A stretch of DNA of 64,000 bases. Origin: Salinibacterium sp. (GTDB lineage Bacteria > Actinomycetota > Actinomycetes > Actinomycetales > Microbacteriaceae). Made by a program: the position numbers and the translations under genes. Each line of letters opens with the position of its first letter. The first letter of the stretch is position 1. Positions 3,137 to 18,500 of this stretch are shown in pieces. The stretch lies in contig JAHBSZ010000002.1 of assembly GCA_019638845.1 (NCBI GenBank), positions 124,001 to 188,000 on the forward strand. Direction: 5' to 3'. The notes beneath the pieces are model-generated. The model made no database searches. It was not told the DNA's origin and saw nothing but the letters and a program-made list of their open reading frames with translations.

Positions 3137-3495
3137 CACCGGACAAGCTTAGGCAACCGCACACCCAACTCCCTCGAAAGTGTGTCGCGTATGTTACGAA
3201 CAGGTGCTTCTGACATTTCGTTATGCCGGATGCCCGCGTTCCCCCAGTAAATCGGCATTTTCGGCCACATTGTCTGGGCCAAGAACGGGTTCCGAGATTA
3301 CACTTTGTAGCCTTTCGTCGCCGGAGAGGAGGCAGATTGTCGATTGTGACGCTACGCAGAGACGCCGACCATGAGACGCAAGGGCTTAGCCCTCGTTGTT
3401 CCGCACCGCCGTTGTTCCCGCACCGCTGCGGCCTCGACTAAACACCGGGTCGCACTCACCGCATTCGTCCATCCGACCCGTTAGGAACACAACAC
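3137..3495. other. Gene-free leader region before the ABC/amidohydrolase operon
   Basis: This 359-bp stretch separates cofE (minus) from the substrate-binding protein gene (plus) and must hold promoters in both directions. It contains the hexamer TACACT at about 3299, a possible -10 for the plus strand without a convincing -35; a distant inverted pair ATGCCG/CGGCAT at 3223-3228 and 3253-3258; and a short open frame behind a perfect AGGAGG (listed separately). A PucR-type regulator site may be here, but I cannot point to a convincing one. I looked for the conserved parts of a TPP riboswitch, which would be expected if the importer handled thiamine precursors, and did not find them. Confidence 0.5.
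3337..3441 (+). CDS. Possible small leader ORF (34 codons) upstream of the operon
   Basis: A TTG at 3337 sits four bases after a perfect AGGAGG (3327-3332), and an in-frame GTG follows at 3346. The frame then runs 34 codons, beginning MSIVTLRRDADHETQG and ending at TAA 3441, about 54 bp before the lipoprotein gene. The strong ribosome binding site in an otherwise gene-free leader is the only support. The peptide has no hydrophobic segment and two Cys residues in RC contexts, not the clustered cysteines of known cysteine-responsive leaders. It may be a chance frame in GC-rich DNA. Confidence 0.25.
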   Translation: MSIVTLRRDADHETQGLSPRCSAPPLFPHRCGLD

Positions 3496-4539
3496 ATGAA
3501 AAGCTCAACCCCATCCATCCGGCGCTTGCGTCGGGGACTCACCGCACTCCTCGCGGTAACCCTTAGCGCCGGCCTCACCGCGTGCGCTGCCCCCACTGCC
3601 GATCCCGGCAGCGAGACCTTGACCGACGTCAACTACCAACTCAGCTGGCTGAAAATCACCCAGTTCGGCGGCTTCTTCGCCGGTGACGCTCAGGGCTTCT
3701 ACAAGGAGGAAGGCATCGCGCCCACTTTCACCGCAGGCGGATCGAACATTCTGGCCTGGCAGCAGGTCGCCTCCGGCGCAGCCCTTCTCGGAGATGAAGA
3801 CCCCACTCTGTTGCTGCAGGCAATCGGCAGTGGCGAGGACCTCGTCGCGATCGGTGCGATATTCCAGAAGTCGCCGCTGGCGATCATGAGCATGTCGGAC
3901 AACCCCATCACGTCCGCCGCAGACTTCGAAGGCAAGACGATCGCCTACCCGGACAACGGCATCGGTTACCTCACGGTGGCGCTCGAAGCTCAGGGTGTCG
4001 ACATGTCGAAGGTGACGATCGTACCCGCCGGCGCCGACCCCACGCAGCTCATCACGGGCCAGGTGGATGGTTACGGCGGCTACGCGACGGCACAAGGCGC
4101 ATCCCTCGAGCTTCAGGGGCTCAAGATCAACTACCTCTACGTCGACGACCTGACCGCACCCAGCTACGGCAACGTCATCGTCACCACGCGCAAGAACATC
4201 GAGGAGAATCGCGACCTGTTGGTGCGATTCCTCACTGCCACGGTAAAGGGCTATGAGTGGATGAACGCGAACCCTGATGACGCCGCGGCAATCGTCGTCA
4301 ACGACGTGAACCCGACCGGTGGCCTCGACCTTGCTACCGAAGCCGCAGCCGCGAAAATCCAGGCTGATCTCATCAAGGGACCGAAGGGCGTACTGCGGCT
4401 CGACGTCGACAAGATGCAGAAGATCATTGATGCACTCGTCAAGGCCGGTACGATCCCGGCTCCGCTCAACGCAGCAGATGTCGTTGATACCTCGCTGCTA
4501 GACGACGTCTACGGCACCTCCACCTCACTCCTCAAGTAA
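3496..4539 (+). CDS. ABC transporter substrate-binding lipoprotein, NMT1/THI5 type
   Basis: This 347-residue protein has a lipoprotein signal peptide with positively charged start, hydrophobic core and lipobox LTAC, with the lipidated Cys at residue 30. The mature part begins YQLSWLKITQFGGFFAGDAQGFYKEEG, the hallmark of NMT1/THI5-like periplasmic binding proteins. Members of this fold bind thiamine pyrimidine precursors, formylaminopyrimidine, nitrate, taurine, sulfonates or various aromatics, so the ligand cannot be read from the fold. The sequence TTAGGAACACAACAC precedes the ATG. It opens the operon and is followed after 27 bp by an amidohydrolase-fold gene and then by the cognate ATPase and two permeases. 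Confidence 0.92.
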   Translation: MKSSTPSIRRLRRGLTALLAVTLSAGLTACAAPTADPGSETLTDVNYQLSWLKITQFGGFFAGDAQGFYKEEGIAPTFTAGGSNILAWQQVASGAALLGDEDPTLLLQAIGSGEDLVAIGAIFQKSPLAIMSMSDNPITSAADFEGKTIAYPDNGIGYLTVALEAQGVDMSKVTIVPAGADPTQLITGQVDGYGGYATAQGASLELQGLKINYLYVDDLTAPSYGNVIVTTRKNIEENRDLLVRFLTATVKGYEWMNANPDDAAAIVVNDVNPTGGLDLATEAAAAKIQADLIKGPKGVLRLDVDKMQKIIDALVKAGTIPAPLNAADVVDTSLLDDVYGTSTSLLK

Positions 4540-4566
4540 CACAACCACCTGGAAGGGCGAGAGCTC

Positions 4567-5298
4567 ATGATCATTGACGCGTACAACAACATCTGGGAAG
4601 CATCAGGGAACTCCGACTACCTCACCGGGGAGTCATTCACCGCGGAGGATCTCATCCCCTTTCTCGATGAGGCTGGCGTGGATATGGCCGTGGGCTGCTC
4701 GCTCGGCCAGGCGATTGACAACGACTACATCGCCAAGGTCGTGACCAAGTATCCCGACCGCTTCATCGGATTCGGCGGAGTCAACCCGCGGCTATCCGGA
4801 GCCGCCGAGACGGTCGCCGAGTGTGCCCGTCTCGGCCTCAAGGGCATCAAGCTCCACCCGACCCTCAATGGCTACCACTTTGCAGACCATGGCCTGCTCG
4901 ATCCGATCTTCAAGGCTGCGACCGACGAGGGCCTTATGATCCTCATCAACGCTCTGGACGACCCGTGGTGTGCACCGCTGTCGATCGAAGAGATCTCGCG
5001 CAACTTCCCCGAGGCCCCCGTGCTCATCGCGCACATGGGAACTGTCTGGAACACGACAGAGGCTCTCATCGTCTCGGAGCGCAATCCCCATATCTACCTC
5101 GAAACTTCGAGCACCCAGTTGCTCGAAGTGCAAACCGCCTACAAGCGCGTCGGCCCGGAGAAAATCGTGATGGGCACCGATTGGCCAGGAAGCGTCCCCG
5201 CACTCGAACGAGCCAAGATCGCCCGCGCGATCCCGAACGATGCCGATCGCGCCCTCATCGAAGGCGGCAACCTCGCCCGGCTCCTTAACCTCGCATGA
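4567..5298 (+). CDS. Amidohydrolase-fold (Amidohydro_2) protein lacking key metal ligands
   Basis: This 243-residue TIM-barrel protein resembles the ACMSD/PDC-hydrolase branch of the amidohydrolases: GLKGIKLHP (about 90-98), APVLIAHMG (about 150-158, H156) and KIVMGTDWPGSVP (about 199-211, D205) are in the expected order. However, the N-terminal metal motif, normally D-x-H-x-H, reads DAYNN, so both histidines (positions 6 and 8) are replaced, and the mid-barrel strand that normally carries a metal His reads MILINALDD with Asn at about 128. The protein may therefore work without the usual metal centre, or be non-catalytic. It is preceded by GGAAGGGCGAG and its stop overlaps the ATPase start by 4 bp. 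Its position between transporter genes is unusual. Confidence 0.85.
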   Translation: MIIDAYNNIWEASGNSDYLTGESFTAEDLIPFLDEAGVDMAVGCSLGQAIDNDYIAKVVTKYPDRFIGFGGVNPRLSGAAETVAECARLGLKGIKLHPTLNGYHFADHGLLDPIFKAATDEGLMILINALDDPWCAPLSIEEISRNFPEAPVLIAHMGTVWNTTEALIVSERNPHIYLETSSTQLLEVQTAYKRVGPEKIVMGTDWPGSVPALERAKIARAIPNDADRALIEGGNLARLLNLA

Positions 5299-6089
5299 AC
5301 GTTGCAGAGAAGGCCAATGTGGTCGTCGACGGCGTCGGCATGGATTTCGCCGTCAAAGGCGGAACCTTCACTGCGCTCAACGACATCGCTCTCACGCTCC
5401 CGCGCGGAAGCTTCACGACACTGCTCGGGCCGTCGGGCTGCGGCAAGTCCACGCTCCTGAGGATCGTCGCCGATGTGATCCAGCCCACACGAGGCACTGT
5501 CGACCTCTTCGGCATGACCGCCAGCGAAGCACGGATGAACGGACTCTTCGGTTTCGTCTTCCAAGATCCCGTGCTGCTGCCGTGGCGATCCGCACTCGGC
5601 AACATCGAGCTGCCGCTCGAGGCGCAGCACGTTCCCAAGGCGGAACGGCGTGAGCGCGCAATGGCGGTCCTCGAGCTCGTCGGGCTCGACGGGTTTGAGC
5701 ACCTGCTGCCCGCCAAGCTCTCGGGCGGTATGGCGCGCCGGGTCGCCATCGCCCGCGCGCTCGTCGTCGAGCCGAGCATCCTGTTCCTCGACGAGCCATT
5801 CAACGGACTCGACGAACTGCGTCGCCGCCAGATGAATGTCGAGCTCCAGCGCATCTGGAGTGCCACGGGGACCACGTCGCTGCTCGTCACGCACAACGTC
5901 GCCGATGCCGTCTTCCTCTCGGACACGGTCATCGTGATGGGGCGCAATCCGGGCCACATTATCGAGCGGCGCGAGATCGACCTTCCGCGGCCCCGGAGTA
6001 TCGACAACTCACTCTCGCCCGACTACATCGCCCATGAACGAGCCCTCACTGCCCTCCTGAGCGACGACTACAAGACTAGGGACGACTAA
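5295..6089 (+). CDS. ABC transporter ATP-binding protein (NitT/TauT type)
   Basis: The 264-residue ATPase energises import of the unknown ligand. It shows Walker A GPSGCGKST (45-53), a Q-loop FVFQDPVLLPW (about 88-96), the signature LSGGMARRV (about 142-150) and Walker B LFLDEP (about 163-168), with the switch His in LLVTHN. The signature has GGM in place of the more common GGQ, a variant seen in other NitT/TauT-type ATPases. The ATG overlaps the preceding stop by 4 bp, and its own TAA shares one base with the next ATG, so translation is coupled through the transporter. Confidence 0.95.
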   Translation: MNVAEKANVVVDGVGMDFAVKGGTFTALNDIALTLPRGSFTTLLGPSGCGKSTLLRIVADVIQPTRGTVDLFGMTASEARMNGLFGFVFQDPVLLPWRSALGNIELPLEAQHVPKAERRERAMAVLELVGLDGFEHLLPAKLSGGMARRVAIARALVVEPSILFLDEPFNGLDELRRRQMNVELQRIWSATGTTSLLVTHNVADAVFLSDTVIVMGRNPGHIIERREIDLPRPRSIDNSLSPDYIAHERALTALLSDDYKTRDD

Positions 6090-6853
6090 TGCGGGCCCTG
6101 CCGAGGCCCGTGCTCCCGGCGATCTATTTCGTACTGTTGTTCGCAGTCTGGCAGGTCGCCGGCCAGGCGCTCGCTGGTCCCGGAGCGGTACTCATTCCAC
6201 CGACCACGATCATCGAGACCATGGGCACGCGCTGGTATGCGCTGCTGCTCAACGCTGGCATCACGCTCGCTGAGGCGGGCCAAGGATTCCTGATCGGGTC
6301 GATATCCGCCATCGTGCTCACCGTTGTGGTCGACCGGTTCCGCGTCGTCGGCGAAGGCTTCTTTCGCCTCGCCCTCGTCATCTACTCCATCCCCGTGATC
6401 GCCATCGCAGCGCCGTTGACGGCGACTCTAGGACTTGGCACCGAGAGCAAGATCGCTGTCGCGGCGCTCTCCGCCTACTTCCCCGTGCTCGTCAACCTCA
6501 CCGGGGCCCTTCGCACCCTCGATCCGCGCATCGACGAACTAGGTCGCGTGCTCGCCATGGGATATACCCGCAAGCTTGTGAGCCTGAGAGCGCCGGCGGT
6601 GTTGCCTGCCCTCTTCTCCTCATTCAAAATCGCCGGACCTGCCGCATTCATCGGCGCGATCATCGCGGAGTGGATGGGTGCCGAAAGCGGCCTCGGCGTC
6701 ATGATCATCCAAGCGATGTTCAACTTCAACGTTCCGTTGCTGTGGACAGTGCTTGTGGTCGCCACAGCCTTGAACGGACTCATCGTGTTTCTCTTCGACG
6801 TTCTCGGCAAACTTGCCGCACCCTGGCACGACTCCTCGAAGGCGATCGCATGA
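6089..6853 (+). CDS. ABC transporter permease (BPD_transp_1) 1
   Basis: This 254-residue integral membrane protein has about six hydrophobic segments (residues roughly 6-24, 65-85, 97-118, 128-150, 178-195 and 222-245). The cytoplasmic coupling loop ELGRVLAMGYTRKLVSLRAPAVLPALFSSFK (about 152-181) matches the EAA-type loop that contacts the ATPase in NitT/TauT permeases. It begins at an ATG sharing one base with the ATPase stop and ends in ATGA overlap with a second permease gene, so the importer is probably a heterodimeric permease rather than the homodimer usual in this family. Confidence 0.93.
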   Translation: MRALPRPVLPAIYFVLLFAVWQVAGQALAGPGAVLIPPTTIIETMGTRWYALLLNAGITLAEAGQGFLIGSISAIVLTVVVDRFRVVGEGFFRLALVIYSIPVIAIAAPLTATLGLGTESKIAVAALSAYFPVLVNLTGALRTLDPRIDELGRVLAMGYTRKLVSLRAPAVLPALFSSFKIAGPAAFIGAIIAEWMGAESGLGVMIIQAMFNFNVPLLWTVLVVATALNGLIVFLFDVLGKLAAPWHDSSKAIA

Positions 6854-7623
6854 GCATCCTTGCCCCCCGCGACCAGCGACTGTCGCTCCCCAGCTGGGTC
6901 GTCACGCTCATCGTCGTCGTTATTGCCCTGGTCGTCTGGCAGATCGGGATCACCGTCGCCGGAACCTCCGCGAACGTGCTTCCCGGCCCCGTGCAGATCC
7001 TGCTTGGAGCGGATTGGTTGCGCGTCGCTGGCGCAGCTGCAAACACGATCTTCTCTACCCTTCTCGGTTTCGCGGTCGGCAACTTCGTCGGACTCGCGCT
7101 TGCCGTGCTCATCTGCGCGTCTCGCACGTTCTCTGACATCGTCTACCCGGCGGCTGTGGTGGTCCGAGCGATCCCCATCGTGGCCCTCGCCCCCTTCATC
7201 ACTCTCGCGTTCGGTCGCGGGCCCGGCGCAACTGTCGTTGTGGCGGCGCTCATCGTGTTCTTCCCGACGCTCGTCAATGTGATTCTGGGCCTGCGGTCGG
7301 TACCCGCAGAAGCTCTCGAACTGCTCAAGGTCATCAACGCGCCGACGGTGTTCTCCTACGCCCGGGTGCGGATCCCCTTCGCCATGCCCTCGTTCGTTTC
7401 CGCCCTAAAAATCTCCGCTCCCAACGCGGTGCTTGGCGTGATGACGGCAGAGTGGATCATCGGCGGCACCGGTCTGGGGCGCCTCGTCGTGCAATCGTGG
7501 CTCAGCCTCGATATCACCACGATGTGGAGTGCAGTGCTCGTCTCGGCGCTCGTGGCGTCGGTGCTCTTTAGCATCGTCGGCCTCATCGAACGTGCCCTCC
7601 TCGGCTGGGCTGTGCGCACGTGA
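6850..7623 (+). CDS. ABC transporter permease (BPD_transp_1) 2
   Basis: The second permease has 257 residues starting MSILAPRDQRLSLPSW, with hydrophobic segments at about 16-36, 65-90, 98-125, 130-150, 185-205 and 225-250. The loop EALELLKVINAPTVFSYARVRIPFAMPSF (about 154-182) is the ATPase-coupling EAA-like loop. I place the start at the ATG at 6850 because it overlaps the previous TGA in an ATGA motif and excludes an implausible soluble N-terminal extension. The gene ends in GTGA overlap with the downstream deaminase-like gene. It is related to, but clearly diverged from, the first permease. Confidence 0.93.
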   Translation: MSILAPRDQRLSLPSWVVTLIVVVIALVVWQIGITVAGTSANVLPGPVQILLGADWLRVAGAAANTIFSTLLGFAVGNFVGLALAVLICASRTFSDIVYPAAVVVRAIPIVALAPFITLAFGRGPGATVVVAALIVFFPTLVNVILGLRSVPAEALELLKVINAPTVFSYARVRIPFAMPSFVSALKISAPNAVLGVMTAEWIIGGTGLGRLVVQSWLSLDITTMWSAVLVSALVASVLFSIVGLIERALLGWAVRT

Positions 7624-8993
7624 GTGTCCGCGTAATCCGAGCTCGTACGCTGCTCGCGGCCGGGGAACCACCCCGCCATGACGCTGCCGTCGTCATCAAC
7701 GACGACGTGATCGGCTGGGTCGGCGACTGGTCAGACCTGGCGGGCAGCGTGAGCTCGGTTACCGAGGTCGACGGAGTCGTGAGTCCAGGATTCGTCGACG
7801 CGCATTCCCATCTGAGAGGCATTCCGCTCGATGAGCACGGACTGCCAGCGCGACAGTTCGAGGCGTGGATTTGCTCGCTCGCTGCGGCCTCAGACCTCGA
7901 CCCGCACGACGAGGCGTTGGTTGCCGGTGTCGGCTTGCTGGAGACAGGGGTGACGGCAGTTCAGGGCTTCGTGGATGCCTCGGCCGACGAGCAGACCGCG
8001 CTCGACCGTGCCCGAGCAGCGGCGCGCGGGCTCGCGAGCACCGGAATCCGCTCGTTGCTCGTGTTGGGGTTTGCCGATCGAGCGCTGCGTGCACCCGAGC
8101 CGGCTCTTGACGACTGGGAGCTCGTATCCGCGCTCCCCCCGCTCCTTCCTGCCAGTAGTGTCGCCCGCGTCGCACGAGAATGGCTCGACCAGAACGCGCC
8201 CGCGCGCACCGAGTACGGCATCGGGCCGGTGGGAGGGCAGTGGTCTAGCGACGCCCTCCTCGAAGCGCTCGCGAGCTGCGCAGGAAACCATCGGGTGCAC
8301 ACCCACCTGCACGAGAGCCGCCATCATCGCGACTGGCTCGCAGGGGCGCAGAGCCCTCTGGAACGACTTCGCTCAACAGGCTTGCTCAACGATCGGCTCT
8401 CCGGCGCGCACGGCGTTCACCTTCGTGCCGACGAACTCGATCTGATCGCTGCATCCGGCGCAAGCCTCGTGCACTGCCCCGCATCCAACGAGGCGCTCCA
8501 CGTCGGTCGGGCCGGTGTGGCCGAGTGGCTCTCCCGCGGCATCCCTGCCGGCATCGGCATCGACAGCCAGAACGTCGGCGCGCCCGACATGTTCGAGGTC
8601 ATGCGGGCCACCTTGGCAACCGCCCATCACGTCGACGACCCGATTTCCGCCGAGCAGGCCTTCATGATGGCGACAACCGGCGGTTCGCACGCGCTAGGGA
8701 TTGCGGGGGGCGGGCGAATCGCCGCGGGCTCCCCCGCCGATCTCATCGCCCTCGACCTTGAGGCAAGCACAGTGGACGACCTCGTCGCCAACGGTTCAGC
8801 AGACTGCGTGCGGAGCGTGTGGGTGGCTGGCGCACCCGTCGTCGTCGACGGCCGCAGCACCGTCGACGCCTCAGCCGCACGCACGCGGTTGACGGGCCAG
8901 CTCGCGAGCGACCGCGTCGCCCGCGAGGAGCGATTGGCCAAGCTTGCCGACACTCTCGACCTCGTAGAACAGCTCGCGGAGGCTCGACGGTGA
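7620..8993 (+). CDS. Amidohydrolase/deaminase of the cytosine deaminase-chlorohydrolase group
   Basis: This 457-residue enzyme has a complete amidohydrolase metal site: GFVDAHSHL (H62, H64), HTHLHES (about 227-233), SGAHGVHL (about 260-267) and GIGIDSQ carrying the catalytic Asp (about 317). HCPASNEAL before the last motif is typical of the ATZ/TRZ, guanine and cytosine deaminase clade, whose members hydrolyse amino, chloro or cyclic amide groups on N-heterocycles. The C-terminal tail of about 50 residues is charged and helical. The GTG start overlaps the permease stop by 4 bp. Together with the importer it suggests a nitrogen heterocycle as substrate, but that is inference. Confidence 0.88.
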   Translation: MSVRVIRARTLLAAGEPPRHDAAVVINDDVIGWVGDWSDLAGSVSSVTEVDGVVSPGFVDAHSHLRGIPLDEHGLPARQFEAWICSLAAASDLDPHDEALVAGVGLLETGVTAVQGFVDASADEQTALDRARAAARGLASTGIRSLLVLGFADRALRAPEPALDDWELVSALPPLLPASSVARVAREWLDQNAPARTEYGIGPVGGQWSSDALLEALASCAGNHRVHTHLHESRHHRDWLAGAQSPLERLRSTGLLNDRLSGAHGVHLRADELDLIAASGASLVHCPASNEALHVGRAGVAEWLSRGIPAGIGIDSQNVGAPDMFEVMRATLATAHHVDDPISAEQAFMMATTGGSHALGIAGGGRIAAGSPADLIALDLEASTVDDLVANGSADCVRSVWVAGAPVVVDGRSTVDASAARTRLTGQLASDRVAREERLAKLADTLDLVEQLAEARR

Positions 8994-9853
8994 TCGCCGA
9001 AGTAGCCGCGCCCGGTACCGCATCGCTGGGTGAAGCCCCGCGCTGGATGCCCTACGGCGGTCTACCGGACCGCCTGGTGTTCACCGACCTGCTGGCCGGC
9101 ACTATCTCCGCCCTCGATGGAGCATCCAGCACCGTTGTCGCGAGTTTCCCGGGCGAAACGGTGAGCGCACTCATTCCGCTCGACGACGGCGCAACGGCTG
9201 TCGCGCTCCATCGTTCCATCGCCATTCTGGGTTCCGACGGCTCGGAGGTTTCGCGCATCGCCCTCGACCTCCAGCCGGGAGCCCGCCTCTCCGACGCAAC
9301 GGCGGGCCCCACCGGACACATCTGGCTGGGCGTGGTCCCGGCTGGGGATAAGCCAATTGACGGCGCACTCATCCGACTCGAACGCGAAGGCTTCTCCGTC
9401 CAGCGCGAGAATGTCGGGTTCTCTAACGGGCTCGGTTTCACCGCTGCGGGCACGGAGCTCATCCACATCGACAGCGCGACCAACACCGTGTGGGGCATCC
9501 AGCACGATCGCCAGACCGGTGACCTCGGCGACGCTCGCCAGATCTTCCAGTGGACAGGCGAAGGTGATCTCGACGGACTCTGTCTGGATGAACTCGACCG
9601 AGCCTGGATCGCAATCTTCGGGGCGGCCCAGGTCATCTGCGTCGACCTGAACGGCACCGTCGTCGACCGAGTAACCGTCGCCGCACCTCGAGTCTCGAGC
9701 TGCACATTCGGCAACGAACGAACGCTGTACATCACCACCGCGCGCATTGACGCCCCCCGTGAGGAACTCGACGGGTACCCCGCCGCAGGCTCGCTCTTCC
9801 GGTGCGAACTGCCAGTGTCGGGCGGACCAGTATGGAAAGGACATCTACTATGA
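8990..9853 (+). CDS. SMP-30/gluconolactonase-family hydrolase
   Basis: This 287-residue six-bladed propeller protein belongs to the SMP-30/luciferin-regenerating family. The metal ligands expected for the family are present: Glu in SLGEAPRW (about 14), Asn in GFSNGLGF (about 145) and Asp in DLDGLCLDE (about 191). Family members are Ca/Zn-dependent lactonases or hydrolases acting on sugar and aromatic lactones. I choose the GTG at 8990 because it overlaps the previous TGA by 4 bp and gives a protein beginning directly with the first blade; longer versions only add an Arg-rich shadow sequence. The stop overlaps the next ATG in ATGA. Confidence 0.9.
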   Translation: MIAEVAAPGTASLGEAPRWMPYGGLPDRLVFTDLLAGTISALDGASSTVVASFPGETVSALIPLDDGATAVALHRSIAILGSDGSEVSRIALDLQPGARLSDATAGPTGHIWLGVVPAGDKPIDGALIRLEREGFSVQRENVGFSNGLGFTAAGTELIHIDSATNTVWGIQHDRQTGDLGDARQIFQWTGEGDLDGLCLDELDRAWIAIFGAAQVICVDLNGTVVDRVTVAAPRVSSCTFGNERTLYITTARIDAPREELDGYPAAGSLFRCELPVSGGPVWKGHLL

Positions 9854-11622
9854 CCATCGACTCGGGACTGAGAACACGCTCTGGACAAAAATTGCCCAAG
9901 GGTTCCGGCATGGGCGGTGGCATCGTGTCGGGGGTATTCGACCAATCCGAATCGATGCGCCCCACGATCTACGGCGAGCGCTGGGCGATCGTAGGCGGTC
10001 ACCCCATCGTGAGCGAGGTGGGCGCCGAGATTCTGCGCCGCGGCGGCAATGCCGTGGATGCCGGTGTCGCCGCCGGGTTCGCCTCCAATGTCGTGCAGGT
10101 AGAAATGTGCAACCTCGGGGGCATCGCCCCGATTCTCGTGCGGGCGAGCGGTTCGCCCGACGTCAAAGCGATCGCCGGGGTGGGAACGTGGGGTGCTCGG
10201 GCCAACCTGCAGGAGATCCTCACTCGCTACGACGGAACCATCCCGCTCGGTGGTGTCCCCTCGATCGTGCCGGGCGCCCTCTCGGGTTGGCTCACCGCAC
10301 TGAGCGGGTTCGGCACCATGTCCCTGCCCGACATCATCGCGCCGGCCATCGAACTCGCGCTGGAGGGCTTCCTCCTCGACCCGCGCACGGCGTCGCACCT
10401 TGCGGCCATGTCGGCGGGGTTCTCCCGCTGGGACTCGTCGATGGCGGTCTATCAGCCCGACGGGGTTGCCTTGAAGGCTGGCGAACGCCTCCGCCAGCCT
10501 GCGCTCGGAGCGACTCTGCAGCGACTCTCGGATGCCGCAACAGAGGCCCAGGTCGCAGGAGCCTCGAGGAAGGCAGCCATCGAGGCCGCCCACACCTTGT
10601 TCTATGCGGGAGACATCGCCGAGACGATCTGCACGTTCGTCAACGCTCGCGGCGGATACCTCGACCCGTCAGACCTCGCGGGCTTCCGCGCGGAAGTGAC
10701 GCCAGCGCCCGCCGTCGACTTCGGTGGCTGGAGGGTGCACGTAACGCCCACCTGGTCGCAGGGGCTCGTCATCGCGCAGGCGTTGGGAGTACTGGAGCGG
10801 CGGGGTATCCGCAATCTGGAATCGACATCGGTGCAGTTCTCACACGAAGTGATTGAGGCGCTCAAGCTCGCATTCAGCGAGCGAGAACGCGCCTACGGCG
10901 ATCCGCGGTTCACGAGCGAAACTGCCGCGCAACTCCTGGATCCCGACCACCTCGAAGCCCTCGCTGCCATGATTGGCGAGCGGGCACTTCCCAACACCCC
11001 CACCACCCCTCAGGCCGGTGTCGCGCTGCCCTCGACGACGGCGATTGTCGTCGTCGATGCCGACGGAACCGCGTTCTCCTGCTCTCCGAGCGACACGATC
11101 GACGGGGCGCCGATCATCCCCGAACTCGGTATTCTCTGCTCGCCTCGCGGCGTGCAGAGCAGGCTGATCCCGGGTCACCCGAATGAACTCAGGCCGGGCG
11201 GGCGCCCGTGCATCACGCCCGCGGCAGTCATTGCTCTCGGCGTCGACGACAACATCTGGGCGGCCGCCTGCCCGGGCGGTGACGTCATCGTTCAGGCAAT
11301 CGTGCAGGCAATGCTGCAGTACGACGTTGTCGGCAAGTCGGCGCAGGCAGCGGTCGAAGCACCGCGGCTATTCGGATCGAGCTATCCGGGCGCCTTCCAT
11401 CCACACCCCGTAGGTGAGTCCCTCGTATTCGTCGAGGCAGGCCTCGGCGAGGAAGTCGCTGCGGGGCTCGCCGAACGCGGCCACGAGATCATCGACTGGC
11501 CCGCCAACGAGTTCGATGCGGGCAGTGTGCAAACCATCATTTCGACGTCGACCCCCGGCGGAGCACGCTTGCTCGCCGCCGGTGCAGATTCAAGGAGGAC
11601 CGCATATGCCTACGCACGATGA
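9850..11622 (+). CDS. Gamma-glutamyltransferase-fold Ntn hydrolase, no signal peptide
   Basis: The 590-residue protein is a gamma-glutamyltransferase/cephalosporin acylase-type Ntn hydrolase. HPIVSEVGAEILRRGGNAVDA (about 51-71) is the family's conserved start, and LPSTTAIVVVDADG marks the autoproteolysis site, with the nucleophile expected at Thr396. The residues after the nucleophile differ from classical glutathione-active enzymes (TTA instead of TTH, and SPSDTIDG in the loop), and the binding loop reads ACPGGDVIVQ. There is no signal peptide, so it should act in the cytoplasm. ATGA overlap with the SMP-30 gene sets the start. It may cleave a gamma-glutamyl or other amide intermediate of the operon's pathway. 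Confidence 0.9.
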   Translation: MTIDSGLRTRSGQKLPKGSGMGGGIVSGVFDQSESMRPTIYGERWAIVGGHPIVSEVGAEILRRGGNAVDAGVAAGFASNVVQVEMCNLGGIAPILVRASGSPDVKAIAGVGTWGARANLQEILTRYDGTIPLGGVPSIVPGALSGWLTALSGFGTMSLPDIIAPAIELALEGFLLDPRTASHLAAMSAGFSRWDSSMAVYQPDGVALKAGERLRQPALGATLQRLSDAATEAQVAGASRKAAIEAAHTLFYAGDIAETICTFVNARGGYLDPSDLAGFRAEVTPAPAVDFGGWRVHVTPTWSQGLVIAQALGVLERRGIRNLESTSVQFSHEVIEALKLAFSERERAYGDPRFTSETAAQLLDPDHLEALAAMIGERALPNTPTTPQAGVALPSTTAIVVVDADGTAFSCSPSDTIDGAPIIPELGILCSPRGVQSRLIPGHPNELRPGGRPCITPAAVIALGVDDNIWAAACPGGDVIVQAIVQAMLQYDVVGKSAQAAVEAPRLFGSSYPGAFHPHPVGESLVFVEAGLGEEVAAGLAERGHEIIDWPANEFDAGSVQTIISTSTPGGARLLAAGADSRRTAYAYAR

Positions 11623-12061
11623 AGCCGGAACCGCGAAGGCCTGGGCGTGGCACCACGCTGGCCTCGTGGTGGCCGACCTCGACGAGTCGATCGCGTTCTA
11701 CCGTGACGCGCTCGGCTATGAGGTCGAGTTCCTCGTTCGCGACATGGACACGCAATTCCAGCGCACCGTGGGCGTGGACGGCGTTGTCTGCGACCTCACT
11801 CAACTGATTGCCCCCTACAGCGGGACCCGGCTCGAACTCATTGCAGTACGTGGAGTTCCCGAGGGCATCGACCCCCGACTTCCCGTGCATGTCGGGGTTG
11901 GTCACGGTGCCTACCAGGTTGCCGACCTCGAGGCCTCGATTGCCGGCCTCGTCGAGCGTGGCGGTTCCCTAATGGGCGAGATCGTGGAGTTCGAGGAGGG
12001 TCCGGCCGTGTACTGCTGGAGCCCCACAGGAACCGTCGTCGAATTGGAGCAGCCATGGTGA
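11606..12061 (+). CDS. VOC-superfamily (glyoxalase/dioxygenase-like) protein
   Basis: This 151-residue protein is a two-module vicinal oxygen chelate domain. The first beta-alpha-beta module contains HHAGLVVADLDESIAFYRDALGY (about 15-37), with a candidate metal His, and the second contains VGHGAYQVADLEASIAGL (about 98-115) and ends GTVVELEQPW with a candidate Glu ligand. VOC enzymes include glyoxalases, epimerases and extradiol dioxygenases; the sequence does not decide which. The ATG at 11606 has a perfect AAGGAGGA about seven bases upstream and overlaps the preceding gene by 17 bp. The 3' end overlaps the next start by 7 bp. Confidence 0.88.
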   Translation: MPTHDEAGTAKAWAWHHAGLVVADLDESIAFYRDALGYEVEFLVRDMDTQFQRTVGVDGVVCDLTQLIAPYSGTRLELIAVRGVPEGIDPRLPVHVGVGHGAYQVADLEASIAGLVERGGSLMGEIVEFEEGPAVYCWSPTGTVVELEQPW

Positions 12062-13035
12062 ACGCCAGCTGGAGTGACCGATACCGACTGATGGTGCTCA
12101 TGCGACGTTTCGAAGAAGCGTGCCTCACCGGGGTCGCAAGCAAAGCCGTGCACGGAGAATTGCACACGGCTATCGGCCAAGAGGCCATCGCCGTCGCTCT
12201 GTCCGAACACATCCGGGCGGATGATTCCCTCACCAGCACCCATCGGAGCCACCTTCACGCGATCGCCAAGGGCATCCCCCTGCGTCCGCTGCTTGCCGAG
12301 ATCTTCGAGAAGAAGACCGGAATGTGCGGCGGATTCGGTGGACACATGCACCTGTTCGATCGTGAACGGCGTTTCAGCACCACCGGCATCGTCGGCGCCT
12401 CACTTCCGGTGGCTCTGGGTCACGCCTACGCCTCCAAGTTGCGCGGCAGCGACGCCGTCGCCTTCGCCGTCGTGGGCGACGGCTCGGTGAACTCGGGTGG
12501 ATTCCACGAGACCATGAACATGGCGAGCGTGCTCGGGCTGGGCCTCGTCGTCATCATCGAGAACAACGAGTGGGCGATCTCCGTGCCCTTCTCGGCAGCG
12601 AGCGCGACTGCGACTCTTGCCGAGCGCGCTGTTGCCTATGCAGTGCCCGGCGAGCGCGTCGATGGTCTGGATGTGCAGGCCACGTCCGACGCCATCGGCC
12701 GTGCCGTCGCGCATGCGCGCACTGACGGTCCGGCGATCGTGGAAGCCATGTGCTACCGGTTCCGCGGACACTATGAGGGCGACCTCGACCTCTATCGCGA
12801 TCAGGGTGAGAAGTCTCTGCGCACCGAGACGAAAGATCCGCTTGTCCTCGCCCGGGCCTTCCTGAGTGATGGGATTCTCGATCCCGTGCTCCTCGATGAA
12901 CTCGAGCAGTCCGCCTCGGCCGAGATCGACGAGTTGCTCGCGAGCGTGCTCCTCGATGAGCAGCCCGATCCGGCGAGCGCGCGCGACCACGTTTTCACTT
13001 CGGGGCTCGCCCCGTTCGAAGGGATTCCCTCATGA
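12055..13035 (+). CDS. TPP-dependent 2-oxoacid/acetoin dehydrogenase E1 alpha subunit
   Basis: The 326-residue protein resembles pyruvate and acetoin dehydrogenase E1 alpha. The thiamine diphosphate motif runs from GDGS at 141-144 to NN at 170-171, and MCGGFGGHMHLF (about 90-101) and YRFRGHYEGD (about 232-241) are typical. E1 alpha/beta normally decarboxylates a 2-oxoacid (or cleaves acetoin) and passes the acyl group to a lipoyl E2. No E2 or E3 gene is in the operon, so it must borrow them or work non-oxidatively. It overlaps the VOC gene by 7 bp (ATGGTGA) and is coupled to the beta gene by ATGA. Confidence 0.92.
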   Translation: MVNASWSDRYRLMVLMRRFEEACLTGVASKAVHGELHTAIGQEAIAVALSEHIRADDSLTSTHRSHLHAIAKGIPLRPLLAEIFEKKTGMCGGFGGHMHLFDRERRFSTTGIVGASLPVALGHAYASKLRGSDAVAFAVVGDGSVNSGGFHETMNMASVLGLGLVVIIENNEWAISVPFSAASATATLAERAVAYAVPGERVDGLDVQATSDAIGRAVAHARTDGPAIVEAMCYRFRGHYEGDLDLYRDQGEKSLRTETKDPLVLARAFLSDGILDPVLLDELEQSASAEIDELLASVLLDEQPDPASARDHVFTSGLAPFEGIPS

Positions 13036-14051
13036 CCATCACCGAGATTGCACCCCGCAACATCAACATCTCCCAGGCGGTCGCCGAAGGCCTTCGTCTG
13101 GAGATGGAAGCCGACGAGAAGGTCCTCGTCATCGGAGAGGACGTGGCAACCCAGGGCGGCGTGTTCGGCTCGACCCGCGGGCTGCTGAAGGCGTTCGGAC
13201 CGCAGCGCGTGCTCGACACCCCGATCTCCGAAATGGCGTTCACTGGAATGGCCGTGGGGCTCGCGATGGACGGGTACCGGCCCGTCATCGAGATCATGTT
13301 CGTCGACTTCATCGGCGTGTGCCTCGAGCAGGTGTACAACGCGATCGCCAAGATTCCCTACATGTCGGGCGGGCGAGTGGACATGCCGGTCGTCATCAAG
13401 ACCGCGGGCGGGAATATCGGTTCCGCAGCGCAGCACTCCCAGACGCTGTGGGGGTTGTTCGCCCACCTTCCCGGTCTGCGCGTGGTCGCTCCCTCCAACC
13501 CTTACGACAGCAAGGGCATGATGGCCGCCGCCGTGCGGTCGAACGATCCTGTGGTGTTCATCGAGCACAAGGGGTTACTGCTCAAGCGAGCATCCGACTT
13601 CACCTTCGGGGCCTCGGTGCCGAAAGAGGCATACGACGTGCCCCTCGGTAGTGCGGCAATCGTGCGTCCCGGCTCCGACCTGACCATCGCGACACTCAGC
13701 GGATCGGTGCGGCACGCCGTAGCGGCCGCCGAGGTCGCAGCGGGCCAAGGCATCGATGTGGAGGTCATCGACCTGCGGAGCATCGTGCCGCTCGACTGGA
13801 ACACGGTGTGCGAATCGGTGGGCCGCACCCGATCGCTGCTCGTCGTCGACGAGGACTACTTGGGATTCGGCCTCAGCGGTGAACTGATCACCGGCGTCAT
13901 CGAGCGGCTCGGAATGGGTGCCATGGACTACGTCGGTCGCCACGGCAATCCCGGTGTCCCCGTCCCCGCCGCGCTCAGTCTCGAACAAGCGATAGTTCCC
14001 GACGCCGAGTCGATACTCGCGGCGATCATGCGAGCGGGGGCGGCACGATGA
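13032..14051 (+). CDS. TPP-dependent 2-oxoacid/acetoin dehydrogenase E1 beta subunit
   Basis: This 339-residue protein is the transketolase-like beta partner of the preceding E1 alpha. VLVIGEDVATQGGVFGSTRGL (about 31-51), TPISEMAFTGMAVGLAMDGYRPVIEIMF (about 61-88) and HSQTLWGLFAHLPGLRVVAPSNPYDSKGM (about 136-164) follow the family pattern, and the C-terminal transketolase domain has VEVIDLRSIVPLDW. The beta subunit supplies residues to the TPP site and mediates E2 contact. ATGA overlaps occur at both ends, which implies strict translational coupling with E1 alpha and the SDR gene. Confidence 0.93.
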   Translation: MTITEIAPRNINISQAVAEGLRLEMEADEKVLVIGEDVATQGGVFGSTRGLLKAFGPQRVLDTPISEMAFTGMAVGLAMDGYRPVIEIMFVDFIGVCLEQVYNAIAKIPYMSGGRVDMPVVIKTAGGNIGSAAQHSQTLWGLFAHLPGLRVVAPSNPYDSKGMMAAAVRSNDPVVFIEHKGLLLKRASDFTFGASVPKEAYDVPLGSAAIVRPGSDLTIATLSGSVRHAVAAAEVAAGQGIDVEVIDLRSIVPLDWNTVCESVGRTRSLLVVDEDYLGFGLSGELITGVIERLGMGAMDYVGRHGNPGVPVPAALSLEQAIVPDAESILAAIMRAGAAR

Positions 14052-14800
14052 GCCGCCGTCACGTCGTTGTCGTCGGAGGCGCCGGAGCCATCGGAAGTGT
14101 CGTAGCAACCGTGCTGGCCGAGCAAGGTATGCGCGTCACCGTCACCGATATGAGCGATACGGATGCACTTGTGACGTCGCTGGCCGGCGACGGGCATGCG
14201 GGGCTGAGGCTCGATGTGACCTCCCTCGAGGATGTGCACAGCGCCCTCGGAGTGAATCCGTCGGTGGGACGCTACGACGCTCTCATCTATGCCGCCGGCA
14301 CCAACTACACAGGCCCCGTCGCGACCACGGACTGGGCGGCATGGGACCGGGTGCTCACCGTCAACCTCCGCGGCGCGGCCTACGTCGGCCAGGCGCTCGC
14401 TCAGGGGCTTGAGGTCGACCCACGAGAGTGCAGCACCGTCTACTTCTCGTCGACTGCCGGTCTCGTCGGTGAGGGTGGTGCGAGCGTGTACGCCTCGTCG
14501 AAGTTCGGGCTCATCGGGTTCATGCAGTGTCTCGCCTCCGAAGTTGCGCAGTACGGCGCGCGGGTGAACGCCGTCTGCCCCGGCAACATCGATTCCCCGA
14601 TGCTGCGCACCCTCGCGGCGCAGGTCGCGGAACGCAATGGCGTTGCCACCGAGGAGACCCTCACCGAGTTCGCCTCATCCACCGCGTTCAAACGACTCAT
14701 CGACATTCGTGAGGTCGCGAACGTCGTCGCGTTCCTCGCGAGCGCAGCGTCGACGGGAATGAGCGGTCAATCGGTCGTCATCGACGGCCCGCCCAACTAA
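14048..14800 (+). CDS. Short-chain dehydrogenase/reductase
   Basis: This 250-residue classical SDR has the cofactor motif VVVGGAGAIGSVVA (about 7-20), an NNAG-equivalent region (YAAGTNY, about 80-86), the catalytic Ser in YFSSTAGLV and the YASSKFG catalytic Tyr/Lys pair (about 150-156). An Asp in VTDMSD at the end of the second strand favours NAD over NADP. The coenzyme loop GAGAIG lacks the usual first TG, reading VGGAGAIG. It is coupled to E1 beta by ATGA and followed after 12 bp by the M20 gene, and probably oxidises or reduces an alcohol/ketone in the same pathway. Confidence 0.9.
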   Translation: MSRRHVVVVGGAGAIGSVVATVLAEQGMRVTVTDMSDTDALVTSLAGDGHAGLRLDVTSLEDVHSALGVNPSVGRYDALIYAAGTNYTGPVATTDWAAWDRVLTVNLRGAAYVGQALAQGLEVDPRECSTVYFSSTAGLVGEGGASVYASSKFGLIGFMQCLASEVAQYGARVNAVCPGNIDSPMLRTLAAQVAERNGVATEETLTEFASSTAFKRLIDIREVANVVAFLASAASTGMSGQSVVIDGPPN

Positions 14801-14812
14801 AGGGGAGCATTC

Positions 14813-15976
14813 ATGATCGACTTCGACAAAGTTGTCGCCGACACCCGCACGCTCATCAGCATCGAAAGCACCAACCCGGGGGTTCTCGAAGCGCAGTGTG
14901 CCGATTGGGTCGAGCAGCGGCTGCGCGGTATGGGCCTCGAACCGCACCGTCACCCCGTAGAGGACGGCCGCGACAACGTGAGCGTGATCATCCCGGGCAA
15001 GGATCGCACGGCGCCACGACTCGTGTTCGTGTCTCACCTCGACACGGTACCCATCGGCGTCGGGTGGACCCGCGACCCGCTGGGCGGGGTGATCGAGGAT
15101 GGCCTGCTCTACGGTCGCGGCGCGTGTGACATGAAGTCGGGACTCGCGCTCACTCTCGGGCTGCTCGAAGCACTCACCACGAATGGCACCGTACCGCCCG
15201 CCGATGTCGTGGCCTTCTACACAGTGGACGAAGAAGCGCCCCGGATGCTCGGCGCCCACCAGCTCGTCACCGATGGACTGCTGCGCCCCGATGACCAGAT
15301 TCTCGCGCCCGAGCCCTCCGGTATGCGCCTGCGGATTGCCCAGATGGGACTGCGCTGGGTGACCCTGGCTGTGACGGGTCGCCAGTCGCACGCCGGACGC
15401 GCCCATCTCGGCGTGAACGCGGCCCACATCATGTCGCACATCATCGTCGAGCTCGAGTCGGTGTTTGCAGGCTTGCCGTTCGATGACGAGATCCTCGGGA
15501 AGCCGCGGTTCACGTGCGGCACGATCCACGGCGGTGTCGCCACCAACGTGGTGCCCGCTCATTGCGAGGCCGAACTCGACCTGCGCATTGTGCCGCCCCT
15601 CGTGCCCGAAGATGCCGTCCGCATTGTCGAACAGGTGGCCGCTCGGGTCGTCACGGGCTACCCCGGCTCGAGCTTCGAGGTGTCGACGCTGGGGGCCGCG
15701 CGGCCGCCGGTGCGGGCATCCGACGACTCGAAGATCGTCCGCTCGCTGCGCGACTCGTACCTGCGTCTCACCGGAGCGCTGCCCGAGATCGGGGGTGCCG
15801 ACGGCCACGAAGCGTACACAGACTCTGCGATGATTGCGGCACTCACCGGCTCAACCTCAAGCACCGTGCTCGGGCCCGGAGCGACCGATGAAGCGCACAC
15901 TGCTGATGAGTTCGTCCCGCTCGCCGACATCGAATTGGGCTGCCGACTGTTGTGGGACATGATCGAGAGATGGTGA
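14813..15976 (+). CDS. M20-family metallohydrolase (ArgE/DapE-like)
   Basis: This 387-residue di-zinc amidohydrolase has the M20 ligands in order: VSHLDTVP (H75, D77), RGACDMKSG (D106), TVDEEAP (catalytic and bridging Glu pair at about 138-139), an Asp/Glu position in APEPSG (about 163) and the last His in TDEAHTADEF (about 361). The lid/dimerisation domain lies between about residues 180 and 290. M20 enzymes hydrolyse N-acyl or N-carbamoyl amino acids and peptides. AAGGGGAGC precedes the ATG. Within the operon it could carry out a late amide hydrolysis releasing an amino acid or carboxylate. Confidence 0.92.
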   Translation: MIDFDKVVADTRTLISIESTNPGVLEAQCADWVEQRLRGMGLEPHRHPVEDGRDNVSVIIPGKDRTAPRLVFVSHLDTVPIGVGWTRDPLGGVIEDGLLYGRGACDMKSGLALTLGLLEALTTNGTVPPADVVAFYTVDEEAPRMLGAHQLVTDGLLRPDDQILAPEPSGMRLRIAQMGLRWVTLAVTGRQSHAGRAHLGVNAAHIMSHIIVELESVFAGLPFDDEILGKPRFTCGTIHGGVATNVVPAHCEAELDLRIVPPLVPEDAVRIVEQVAARVVTGYPGSSFEVSTLGAARPPVRASDDSKIVRSLRDSYLRLTGALPEIGGADGHEAYTDSAMIAALTGSTSSTVLGPGATDEAHTADEFVPLADIELGCRLLWDMIERW

Positions 15977-17679
15977 TTCGGCTGCCGCTGTACGGGCGCT
16001 CACAGAACGAGCTTCCTACTGTCGCGCAAGCGCTCGAATTCTCGACGATCATGCGGGGTGACCCTGTCGTGGTGGCCGGGGCGGCTGGCCTCGACCGACG
16101 CGTGCGCTGGGTGCACATGAGCGAGGCAGTCAACATCGAGGGACTCCTCCACGGCGGCGAATTGCTCCTCACCATGGGCATCGTGTTTCCCGAGGACCCG
16201 GCCGGATTGACCGAATACGTCGAACGTCTGGTCGAAACCAACGCCGCAGCCTTGGTGATTGGACTCGGTCCGCGCTACAAAGACCGATTGCCCGCAGCGC
16301 TCGTCGACGCTTGCGAGAAACACGGACTGCCCCTCATTGCGCTTCGGCGCAAGATCGCGTTCATCGATGTCACCGAGGAAGTACACGCCTCCCTCATCGA
16401 CGTTCAGGTGCGCGACCTGCAGGCGTCGGAGAGCATCCACATGATCTTCAGCGCGCTCGCCGTGCAGGGCAGCAAGCCCGAGATCGTGCTCAAGCAAGTG
16501 GCCAAGCTTTCAGGTTTCGCCGTCGTACTCGAGAACCAGTCGCGGCAGATCCTCGCCTTTGACCCCGCGGAACGTACCGCTGGGGACGTGCTCGCCGAGT
16601 GGGCCGAACATAGCCATCGACCGCAGAAGGCCGTGCGCACGTTCTACGACCCGCTGAGCGGCTGGCTGAAGACAACGGTCGGCGCCCGTGGCAATGACTG
16701 GGGGCGTCTTGTCTTGATGGCACCGTCGGCGGGAGCGCGCGACCTCGACGCCGCGCTCGACCCGACAATGACGGTGCCCCGCAGCCTCATCATGCTCATC
16801 GAGCGAGCGGCAACCACCCTCGCTATCGGCAGGCTCGTCGACCGCGAGTCGCAGTTGCTCGACCTCACGACACACAGCAATGTGCTCGGCCAGCTCCTTG
16901 CCGGCGGTCACGACGATGTCGAACTCGACCATCAAGCCCACGCCCTCGGCGTCTCATTCCAACAGACGCGGCTTGCCGGTCTGGCATTCCGAGCGCGCGG
17001 TGCTGCGGAGCTCAATCCGCGCGATCGGCAGCGCGGCCTGCGGGCTCTCGCAAGCTCGATCTCCGATATTGCGCGCGATGCGCGGCTCTCGTCGCTGGTT
17101 GCTCCGGTTGACGATTTCACCGTGGGCATGCTCACGAGCATCCCCCGCGGGTCGAGCGATCTCGCACTGGCGGGCACCATCGTGCAGCAACTTGAGGCGA
17201 CCGGAATGACGGTCATCGCCGCATCCGGTGGGTACGGGCATGGCATCGAACCAGCGCGCGCGGTGCTCCTCGACGCCATCGAAACCGTGGGTACCGCCCT
17301 CAGCATGTCGGTCGAGAGGGATGTCGTCACCGCCGCCGACTTGGGCGTACGCGGCCTCATCCACACCCTCCGCGACGATCCTCGGGTCATTCAGTTCAGC
17401 GAGCGCACTATCGGCCCGCTCGTCGCCTACGACGCCGCCAACCACACCGCGCTCGTGTCGTTGCTTCGACACTTCCTGGATGCCGGTCGCAACAAGACGG
17501 TTGCCGCCAAGCGCGCCTTCGTCTCCCGTCCGTGGATGCACGAACGGCTCCGGCTCATCGGCGACGTGCTCGGAGTCGAGTTGGAGAACGAGAGCGACTG
17601 TGTGAACTTGCAGGTAGCGCTGCTGGTCATGGATGCACAGCGCGACCGGGCGACCACCCACCGCAAGACCGCTCCCTAA
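15970..17679 (+). CDS. PucR-family transcriptional regulator
   Basis: This 569-residue protein has the PucR architecture: an N-terminal ligand-sensing domain (about 10-125, with the signature GLDRRVRWVHMSE), a central GGDEF-like CdaR region, and a C-terminal helix-turn-helix of the HTH_30 type, recognisable by LVSLLRHFLDAGRNKTVAAKRAFVSRPWMHERLRLI (about 497-532). PucR proteins control purine, nitrogen heterocycle and amino-acid catabolic genes. I prefer the ATG at 15970, which overlaps the M20 stop in ATGGTGA as another junction in this operon does; an ATG at 15952 is also in frame. It is the last gene of the operon and probably its regulator. Its stop lies 3 bp from a convergent gene. Confidence 0.9.
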   Translation: MVIRLPLYGRSQNELPTVAQALEFSTIMRGDPVVVAGAAGLDRRVRWVHMSEAVNIEGLLHGGELLLTMGIVFPEDPAGLTEYVERLVETNAAALVIGLGPRYKDRLPAALVDACEKHGLPLIALRRKIAFIDVTEEVHASLIDVQVRDLQASESIHMIFSALAVQGSKPEIVLKQVAKLSGFAVVLENQSRQILAFDPAERTAGDVLAEWAEHSHRPQKAVRTFYDPLSGWLKTTVGARGNDWGRLVLMAPSAGARDLDAALDPTMTVPRSLIMLIERAATTLAIGRLVDRESQLLDLTTHSNVLGQLLAGGHDDVELDHQAHALGVSFQQTRLAGLAFRARGAAELNPRDRQRGLRALASSISDIARDARLSSLVAPVDDFTVGMLTSIPRGSSDLALAGTIVQQLEATGMTVIAASGGYGHGIEPARAVLLDAIETVGTALSMSVERDVVTAADLGVRGLIHTLRDDPRVIQFSERTIGPLVAYDAANHTALVSLLRHFLDAGRNKTVAAKRAFVSRPWMHERLRLIGDVLGVELENESDCVNLQVALLVMDAQRDRATTHRKTAP

Positions 17680-18405: not shown

Positions 18406-18500
18406 AGTTGCCACGGTAGCGTGGCGTCTACCCGATCCGGACGGCGCACCGAGTCTCATGACACAGTGTTGGCGGTAGGGGTTTTCCGGGCATCACTGCG

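Follow-up and report, generated by a model that had tools for sequence, protein, structure and literature searches.

Several described systems share parts with the locus reported here. The formylaminopyrimidine salvage system ThiXYZ-YlmB joins an NMT1/THI5-type importer to an M20 hydrolase, YlmB, and allophanate hydrolase decarboxylates its substrate while releasing a terminal carbamoyl nitrogen. The same coupling of carbamoyl nitrogen removal to decarboxylation is described for AtzEGH (excerpts of PMC6219798). The hpxW gene product has been named an oxamate amidohydrolase and that of hpxY an oxalurate amidohydrolase, with oxamate carbamoyltransferase given in a legend (excerpts of PMC12625717), and an oxalyl-Thr intermediate has been proposed for actinobacterial homologues of gamma-glutamyltransferase (GGT; excerpts of PMC5519988). 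We analyzed a 64,000-nucleotide stretch of the 2.96 Mb genome assembly of a Salinibacterium sp. (GCA_019638845.1, contig JAHBSZ010000002.1, positions 124,001 to 188,000; hereafter the window), in which 14 open reading frames, all on the plus strand, form a predicted operon at positions 3496-17679. No published description of this gene set was found in the literature searched, which mostly did not include subscription journals; an earlier note made from the sequence alone had likewise recognized no described pathway. We propose, with slightly less than even confidence, that the operon encodes one undescribed catabolic pathway, in which a cyclic amidine would be deaminated to a ureide, nitrogen freed as ammonia and a C-C bond cleaved by a thiamine diphosphate (ThDP)-dependent enzyme. 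The genes are as follows.

3496..4539, plus strand: NMT1/THI5-type solute-binding lipoprotein (SBP; PF09084, 157 bits)
4567..5298, plus strand: AH2, a full-length Amidohydro_2 TIM barrel that lacks the HxH metal motif
5295..6089, plus strand: ABC transporter ATPase (PF00005)
6089..6853, plus strand: ABC permease 1 (PF00528)
6850..7623, plus strand: ABC permease 2 (PF00528)
7620..8993, plus strand: AH1, a deaminase-type metal-dependent amidohydrolase of the 8-oxoguanine deaminase / TRZ-ATZ group (PF01979)
8990..9853, plus strand: SGL, an SMP-30/gluconolactonase-like hydrolase (PF08450)
9850..11622, plus strand: Ntn hydrolase of the GGT fold, unlikely to be a gamma-glutamyltransferase (PF01019)
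11606..12061, plus strand: VOC (glyoxalase-fold) protein (PF13669, PF00903)
12055..13035, plus strand: E1-alpha of a ThDP 2-oxoacid/acyloin enzyme (PF00676)
13032..14051, plus strand: E1-beta, partner of E1-alpha in the ThDP enzyme (PF02779, PF02780)
14048..14800, plus strand: short-chain dehydrogenase/reductase (SDR; PF13561)
14813..15976, plus strand: M20 metallo-amidohydrolase of the ArgE/DapE type (PF01546, PF07687)
15970..17679, plus strand: PucR-family regulator (PF07905, PF13556)

Every one of the 14 genes had a Pfam match over the model's own cut-off, and 11 of the 13 junctions overlap. In order, the junctions measure +27, -4, -1, -4, -4, -4, -4, -17, -7, -4, -4 and +12 bp, followed by M20/PucR at -7 or -4 bp depending on whether PucR starts at ATG 15970 or GTG 15973. 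The earlier note had counted 14 plus-strand genes with nearly all junctions overlapping, and its overlap sizes match; its importer with two permeases was borne out, although it had omitted the ATPase at 5295-6089.

The importer and the M20 enzyme recall ThiXYZ-YlmB, but the operon continues with catabolic-type enzymes and has no thiamine salvage enzyme among its 14 genes. We file the gene set as a variant of ureide/heterocycle catabolism, its nitrogen part resembling the hpx and atz operons, whose defining genes are missing from the window. The likeness to hpxWXYZ lies in alphaproteobacterial relatives, which have the order GGT-AtzG-AtzE-AtzH and in which one AtzE (546 bits, cut-off 461) and one HpxZ/AtzH (168.5 bits, cut-off 135) passed when tested. 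In contrast, HpxX, HpxY and HpxZ are absent from the window, and its GGT-fold gene product is far from chain 5hft, which we take to be HpxW (64 bits, where the best hit reached 166). AH1, AH2, both E1 subunits, the SDR and the VOC protein have no counterpart in the hpx set as far as the excerpts describe it (PMC6219798). The cyanuric acid operon atzDGEHF of Pseudomonas sp. ADP shares the logic of an amidase acting with an N-carboxy decarboxylase, as well as allophanate hydrolase in some relatives; it differs in that the 14 genes include no cyanuric acid hydrolase and the carbon skeleton here would probably pass to the ThDP enzyme (excerpts of PMC6219798). Actinobacterial GGT homologues of the LmbA/Ant6 type share the GGT fold, the Thr nucleophile and non-glutamyl substrates, but their role in antibiotic biosynthesis is the cleavage of a C-C bond (excerpts of PMC5519988).

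Enzyme assignments

The AH2 gene product has the TIM-barrel fold and carries DAYN where the superfamily has HxH on strand 1. DAYN was present in all five homologues of a first comparison and in 38 of 38 AH2 proteins of a larger one, most of which were chosen with MIIDAYN as bait. Because the scan of species genomes was baited with MIIDAYN and N[IV]WEASG[NT], it is partly by construction that its loci lack HxH and that AH2 is present in all 27 genomes compared below. For this reason 396 genomes of the phylum were searched with the whole AH2 protein, and DAYN was found in all four genomes matched at 66% or more. Among the many weaker matches of the whole-protein search, 26 distant loci (38% or less) had HxH in 18, HxQ in five, another motif in two and an unreadable site in one. 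DAYN against the HxH of these 18 also sets AH2 apart from 3cjp (CAC3332), 3irs, ACMSD and the gamma-resorcylate and isoorotate decarboxylases. The loss of HxH is thus a trait of the AH2 family here, yet not unique in the superfamily. A truncated gene, as the earlier note's "incomplete" Amidohydro_2 protein implied, was rejected because AH2 belongs to a full-length family without HxH that includes homologues found without the motif bait. Plasmid records gave 176 matches to AH2, none of them at 60% identity or more and the best-ranked at 32%, and no orthologue was seen among them.

AH1 falls in the deaminase-type cog0402 group and retains the residues that we take to bind metal and to act in catalysis: H227, H229, E232, H264 and D315 were invariant in 23 of 23 sequences, with HxH in all 22 that were readable there. 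All 25 NCBIfam models listed for AH1 were below their cut-offs. The M20 gene product scored slightly under the cut-off of TIGR01910 (212 against 217.6 bits); its presumed metal-site residues H75, D77, D106, E140, E141, E167 and H362 were invariant in 16 rows. Invariant in 22 rows of the SDR were N106, S135, Y148 and K152, presumably catalytic.

Both E1 subunits are present, and G141-D142-G143 and E169-N170-N171 of E1-alpha, which we take to be the ThDP motif, were invariant in 23 rows; the subunit pair and the motif are shared with acetoin and pyruvate dehydrogenases. The pair differs from those enzymes in that E1-alpha (267.5 bits, cut-off 393.85) and E1-beta (287.9 bits, cut-off 321) score under the curated cut-offs and the Pfam search found no E2 or E3 among the 14 operon genes; the E1 pair is thus an orphan, as the earlier note had said.

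The GGT-fold gene product has the catalytic Thr and the oxyanion PGG, and neither T396-T397 nor P475-G476-G477 varies across 27 rows. Its score against the gamma-glutamyltransferase model TIGR00066 was 219.5 bits, below the cut-off of 357.85. In a pairwise alignment with 2e0w, Val occupies the place of the E. coli GGT Arg that we take to be R114 and to bind the gamma-glutamyl carboxylate. We therefore rejected a true gamma-glutamyltransferase. By analogy, the oxalyl-Thr proposal (PMC5519988) and the naming of hpxW and hpxY (PMC12625717), both taken from excerpts, make a 2-oxo-amide a plausible substrate.

Recurrence in the genus and in other phyla

Three congeners (G021, G022, and G024) have all 14 genes in the order of the window, with 10, 11, and 11 of 13 junctions overlapping when the start codon nearest to the window's is taken as the start. 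A gene order common to four species is not due to chance. The GGT orthologue was found in three of 26 congeners. The earlier note had asked for the same gene order in other actinobacteria; these three species supply it, and relatives of the operon extend into further phyla.

A fifteenth gene, for an allophanate hydrolase, follows PucR on its 3' side in all three sister species (597 bits in G021, 602 in G022, and 582 in G024; cut-off 511), and the locus L011 has another at 719 bits against the same cut-off. The window genome gave no allophanate hydrolase match at E <= 1e-40; there the PucR gene stops at 17679, facing an SDR gene on the opposite strand whose end is at 17683. In one more congener, G008, an amidase matched less well (38%, E 2.8e-48). 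Urea carboxylase over its cut-off was found in none of the 27 genomes of the genus, and urease was present in five of the 27, among them G022 but not G021, G024 or the window strain. The allophanate hydrolase would therefore hardly serve urea in G021 and G024, and in at least these two it is best read as part of the operon's pathway rather than of urea use. For the same reasons we rejected a urea route in G021, in G024 and in the window strain.

Related operons were detected in Actinomycetota, in Alphaproteobacteria and in a Trueperaceae/Gemmatimonadota cluster. The two loci of that cluster, L027 (a Trueperaceae metagenome-assembled genome, MAG) and L028 (a Gemmatimonadota MAG), are near-identical and possibly one DNA binned twice, and L022 comes from a 3.0 Mb MAG titled Bifidobacterium breve, probably a misclassification. 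Scanning species genomes with AH2 turned up 72 loci, of which 25 belong to a close subfamily, 46 belong to a second subfamily and one is partial. For the close subfamily we compared 27 genomes, among them the window strain and the three sister species; selection was by GGT in the sisters and by AH2 otherwise. Counts rest on a matrix of hidden Markov model matches because the homology-weighted gene caller miscalls some frames; bit thresholds were chosen after the table had been seen, and weak cross-hits were ignored, such as "AHase" matches of 132-171 bits in Alphaproteobacteria. Left out of the matrix were L018 and L025 (duplicates of L009 and L011), L085 (42%, partial), G099 (found later), and L012 together with the second G400 contig, which carry GGT and M20 on one contig and AH2 and E1-beta on the other. 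In Microbacterium 18062 the locus stops within M20, the UBA3012 contig has masked stretches, and in three alphaproteobacterial loci E1-alpha, E1-beta and VOC lie beyond the locus edge, where only E1-beta was looked for.

The recurring core comprises VOC, E1-alpha, E1-beta, SDR, the GGT-fold hydrolase, AH1 and AH2. GGT was present in 27 of 27 genomes, AH1 in 23, and E1-beta in 26 (23 inside the loci and three at coordinates abutting the locus edge, with contig identity inferred), the exception being an Acidimicrobiia MAG. The same three of the 396 phylum genomes, namely the window's own, G164, and G400, matched both GGT (E <= 1e-80) and E1-beta (E <= 1e-110); AH2 at 66% or more was in these and in G099. 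The E1-beta homologue of G012 (52%) has none of the other operon genes near it in the 16 kb read. The gene set is kept even in an aquatic Microbacteriaceae MAG of 1.3 Mb assembled size. A RibD_C/DHFR-like reductase ends the VOC-E1-SDR arm in L021 (2349-3191), L026 (3042-3887) and L039 (205-849) and stands at a different place in L011 (2-1294), making four of 27 clusters; the Pfam comparison covered L011.

Around this core the importer, the regulator and several hydrolases are exchanged. M20 was found in all 17 non-alphaproteobacterial genomes and in none of the ten alphaproteobacterial ones, which have AtzE and AtzH types instead (10/10, against 0/17) and AtzG in nine; G465, one of the Alphaproteobacteria, has a distant M20 at 33%. 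The SMP-30-like enzyme (12 of 17 non-alphaproteobacterial genomes, none of ten alphaproteobacterial) is replaced by a metallo-beta-lactamase-fold hydrolase in Alphaproteobacteria (8 of 10, none of the 17 others). Allophanate hydrolase (four genomes) or a free AH_C domain (four) occurred in 8 of 17 non-alphaproteobacterial genomes and in none of the ten alphaproteobacterial, and no genome of the 27 combined either with AtzE/AtzH types. The alphaproteobacterial order is VOC, E1-alpha, E1-beta, SDR, GGT, AtzG, AtzE, AtzH, an oligopeptide-type importer, AH2, and AH1, with VOC and GGT further downstream in Roseitalea. The exchanges track phylogeny and may have few events behind them.

AH2 is accompanied by a deaminase in both of its subfamilies. 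In the second subfamily, whose 46 loci were counted apart from the 27-genome matrix, a cytidine-deaminase-fold protein was present in 45, directly 3' of AH2 in 42 of these, with CAE-PCxxC in 45 of 45. These loci (L040-L089) also hold GGT (25 of 46), copper amine oxidase (22), creatininase (18), and isochorismatase-type hydrolases (12); "AHase" counts there probably take in ordinary amidases and were not used. No E1-beta, M20 or AtzH of the kinds searched was found in the 46 loci, which represent another undescribed nitrogen catabolic set.

Control region and flanking genes

Two copies of a motif with the consensus KACAYTTCGTAG and one further element lie upstream of SBP.

3212..3223, plus strand: upstream motif copy 1, putative operator, GACATTTCGTTA
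3299..3310, plus strand: upstream motif copy 2, putative operator, TACACTTTGTAG
3337..3346, plus strand: conserved element TTGTCGATTG between the putative operator pair and SBP, from an alignment of four species

Copies of KACAYTTCGTAG are paired 86-87 bp apart, 5' of SBP, in the window, in G021, G022, and G024, and in the Microbacterium locus L019, where the counterpart of the conserved element is CTGTCGATTG. The pair was not seen in L024 and L105, more distant operons with an NMT1-type importer and PucR. Single matches are not rare, with 6.9 expected in the window at up to two mismatches, but this frequency leaves the conserved spacing and place of the pair unexplained. Promoter and terminator scans gave no consensus promoter site (2.0 expected) and four terminators (7.1 expected).

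Upstream of the operon, at 874-3139, are the F420 biosynthesis genes CofD (plus strand), CofC, and CofE (both minus strand). The 20 kb loci of the sisters contained none of these three genes, which shows that the 5' neighborhood differs. On the 3' side the SDR gene at 17683-18459, convergent with PucR and 3 bp from it, takes the place of the sisters' allophanate hydrolase and is followed by an HxlR regulator (18501-18851). An SDR gene whose product is 80-89% identical to that of the window's convergent gene also adjoins the operon in the three sisters.

Proposed pathway and competing readings

From gene content, conservation, the pattern of enzyme substitution and intact catalytic residues, all directly observed, we infer the chemical steps, their order, the target of the regulator and the substrate class; each single step is less certain than the frame as a whole. 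The substrate would be a small nitrogen heterocycle whose amino group can be exchanged, such as a cyclic amidine or guanidine (for example an aminopyrimidine or amino-imidazolone). The NMT1-type ABC system would import it, and AH1 would deaminate it hydrolytically to a cyclic ureide, which AH2 and the SMP-30-like enzyme may open or rearrange without redox chemistry. M20 (AtzG-AtzE in Alphaproteobacteria), together with an activity of the allophanate hydrolase type (AtzH there), would convert the carbamoyl end of R-CO-NH-CO-NH2 to ammonia and CO2. The GGT-fold Ntn hydrolase would then release ammonia and a 2-oxo acid from the remaining 2-oxo-type amide, and SDR and VOC may adjust a hydroxyl/keto pair. 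Finally, a C-C bond would be cleaved with ThDP by the E2-free E1-alpha/beta. PucR would control the operon. The strongest clue comes from outside the window, in the ureide-type enzymes (allophanate hydrolase, free AH_C, AtzGEH/HpxXYZ) of related operons, and ureide chemistry would account for AtzE/AtzH types and allophanate hydrolase or its free domain as alternatives in these relatives. The earlier note's overall interpretation, a single catabolic operon whose nitrogen compound is imported, deaminated and then hydrolyzed as an amide, is supported with respect to these features but not in its incomplete AH2; nor is a gamma-glutamyltransferase function of the GGT-fold protein supported.

Several observations weigh against a single pathway of this kind. 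Since an allophanate hydrolase is missing from the window strain, the step must be spontaneous or otherwise done there, or the ureide reading is wrong for this strain; G022 has urease. AH1 is missing in four of the 27 genomes, one of whose loci stops at a contig end before the place of AH1. The split between M20 and AtzGEH follows phylogeny and may be a single event. An oxygenase-fold protein occurs in six aquatic or other relatives, so a purely hydrolytic ring opening is not general. The set is also separable. In G099 (L139, 8612-15116), SBP, AH2, the ATPase, two permeases and AH1 follow one another in the window's order and are succeeded by a creatininase-family gene, and the 20 kb read contained no GGT, E1, M20, or SGL; the importer, AH2 and AH1 thus form a unit able to do without the rest, which favors joint action of AH1 and AH2 but counts against an indivisible set. 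The Acidimicrobiia locus likewise has GGT and M20 without VOC, E1 and SDR. In that MAG two tandem AH2 paralogues (L035, 9267-10747) adjoin GGT and M20.

G099 and the Acidimicrobiia locus support a rival reading, toward which G099 shifts some weight from a single pathway: separate modules that merely adjoin, with the importer, AH2 and AH1 serving one ring compound, GGT and M20 serving as a set for amide or ureide nitrogen, and VOC-E1-SDR for an unrelated 2-oxo acid or acyloin. We consider such an arrangement possible but doubtful. The two arms also stand on opposite strands in aquatic Actinobacteria. However, E1-beta accompanies AH2 and GGT in all but one of the 27 genomes, across several phyla, and GGT and E1-beta match the same few genomes of the 396. 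Moreover, GGT and VOC overlap by 17 bp across the supposed module border, and genes overlap there in four species.

Catabolism of the thiamine pyrimidine, either hydroxymethylpyrimidine (HMP) or formylaminopyrimidine, is unlikely. Under this scheme the 2-methyl group would leave as an N-acetyl or N-formyl group through M20, and the GGT-fold enzyme would cleave a C4 carboxamide after deamination by AH1. The deaminase-type enzyme and an M20 of the ArgE/DapE deacylase type fit, and the better of two solved SBP relatives is the formylaminopyrimidine-binding protein ThiY (3ix1, E 2e-18). With only two solved relatives found, this likeness is a weak hint at a pyrimidine-sized ring. On the other hand, the allophanate hydrolase, AH_C and AtzGEH/HpxXYZ of relatives indicate a ureido group, which HMP does not have; HMP yields no 2-oxo acid for E1, and the importer class differs in Alphaproteobacteria. 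A variant Hpx/All purine branch, handling allantoin-derived ureides that end in oxalurate and oxamate, is improbable despite the ggt-atzG-atzE-atzH order that Alphaproteobacteria share with Enterobacteriaceae (excerpts of PMC6219798), the HpxZ model passed and the PucR regulator, since the 14 genes lack allantoinase, allantoate hydrolase and ureidoglycine transaminase as well as HpxX, HpxY, and HpxZ, GGT is far from 5hft, and oxalurate would leave E1, SDR, VOC, and AH1 without a role.

Deamination of a ring compound to a ureide followed by ThDP-dependent cleavage thus remains the reading that we prefer. More tentatively, the operon may belong to a cross-phylum pathway for a common dissolved nitrogen heterocycle, its hallmark an AH2 family without HxH metal ligands that partners a ring deaminase (AH1, or the cytidine-deaminase-fold enzyme in the other subfamily) and its end an E2-free E1-alpha/beta acting as a ThDP lyase or decarboxylase. 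Because unrelated enzymes replace one another next to the recurring core, the possible chemistry is narrowed and can be tested. If the proposal is true, bacteria of soil, sea and fresh water would have a new route by which to break down organic nitrogen, and the proposal would give functions to a clade of GGT-fold hydrolases, to an E1-alpha/beta pair and to an amidohydrolase family without the metal motif. AH2, GGT, and E1-beta would then serve as metagenome markers for users of the compound.

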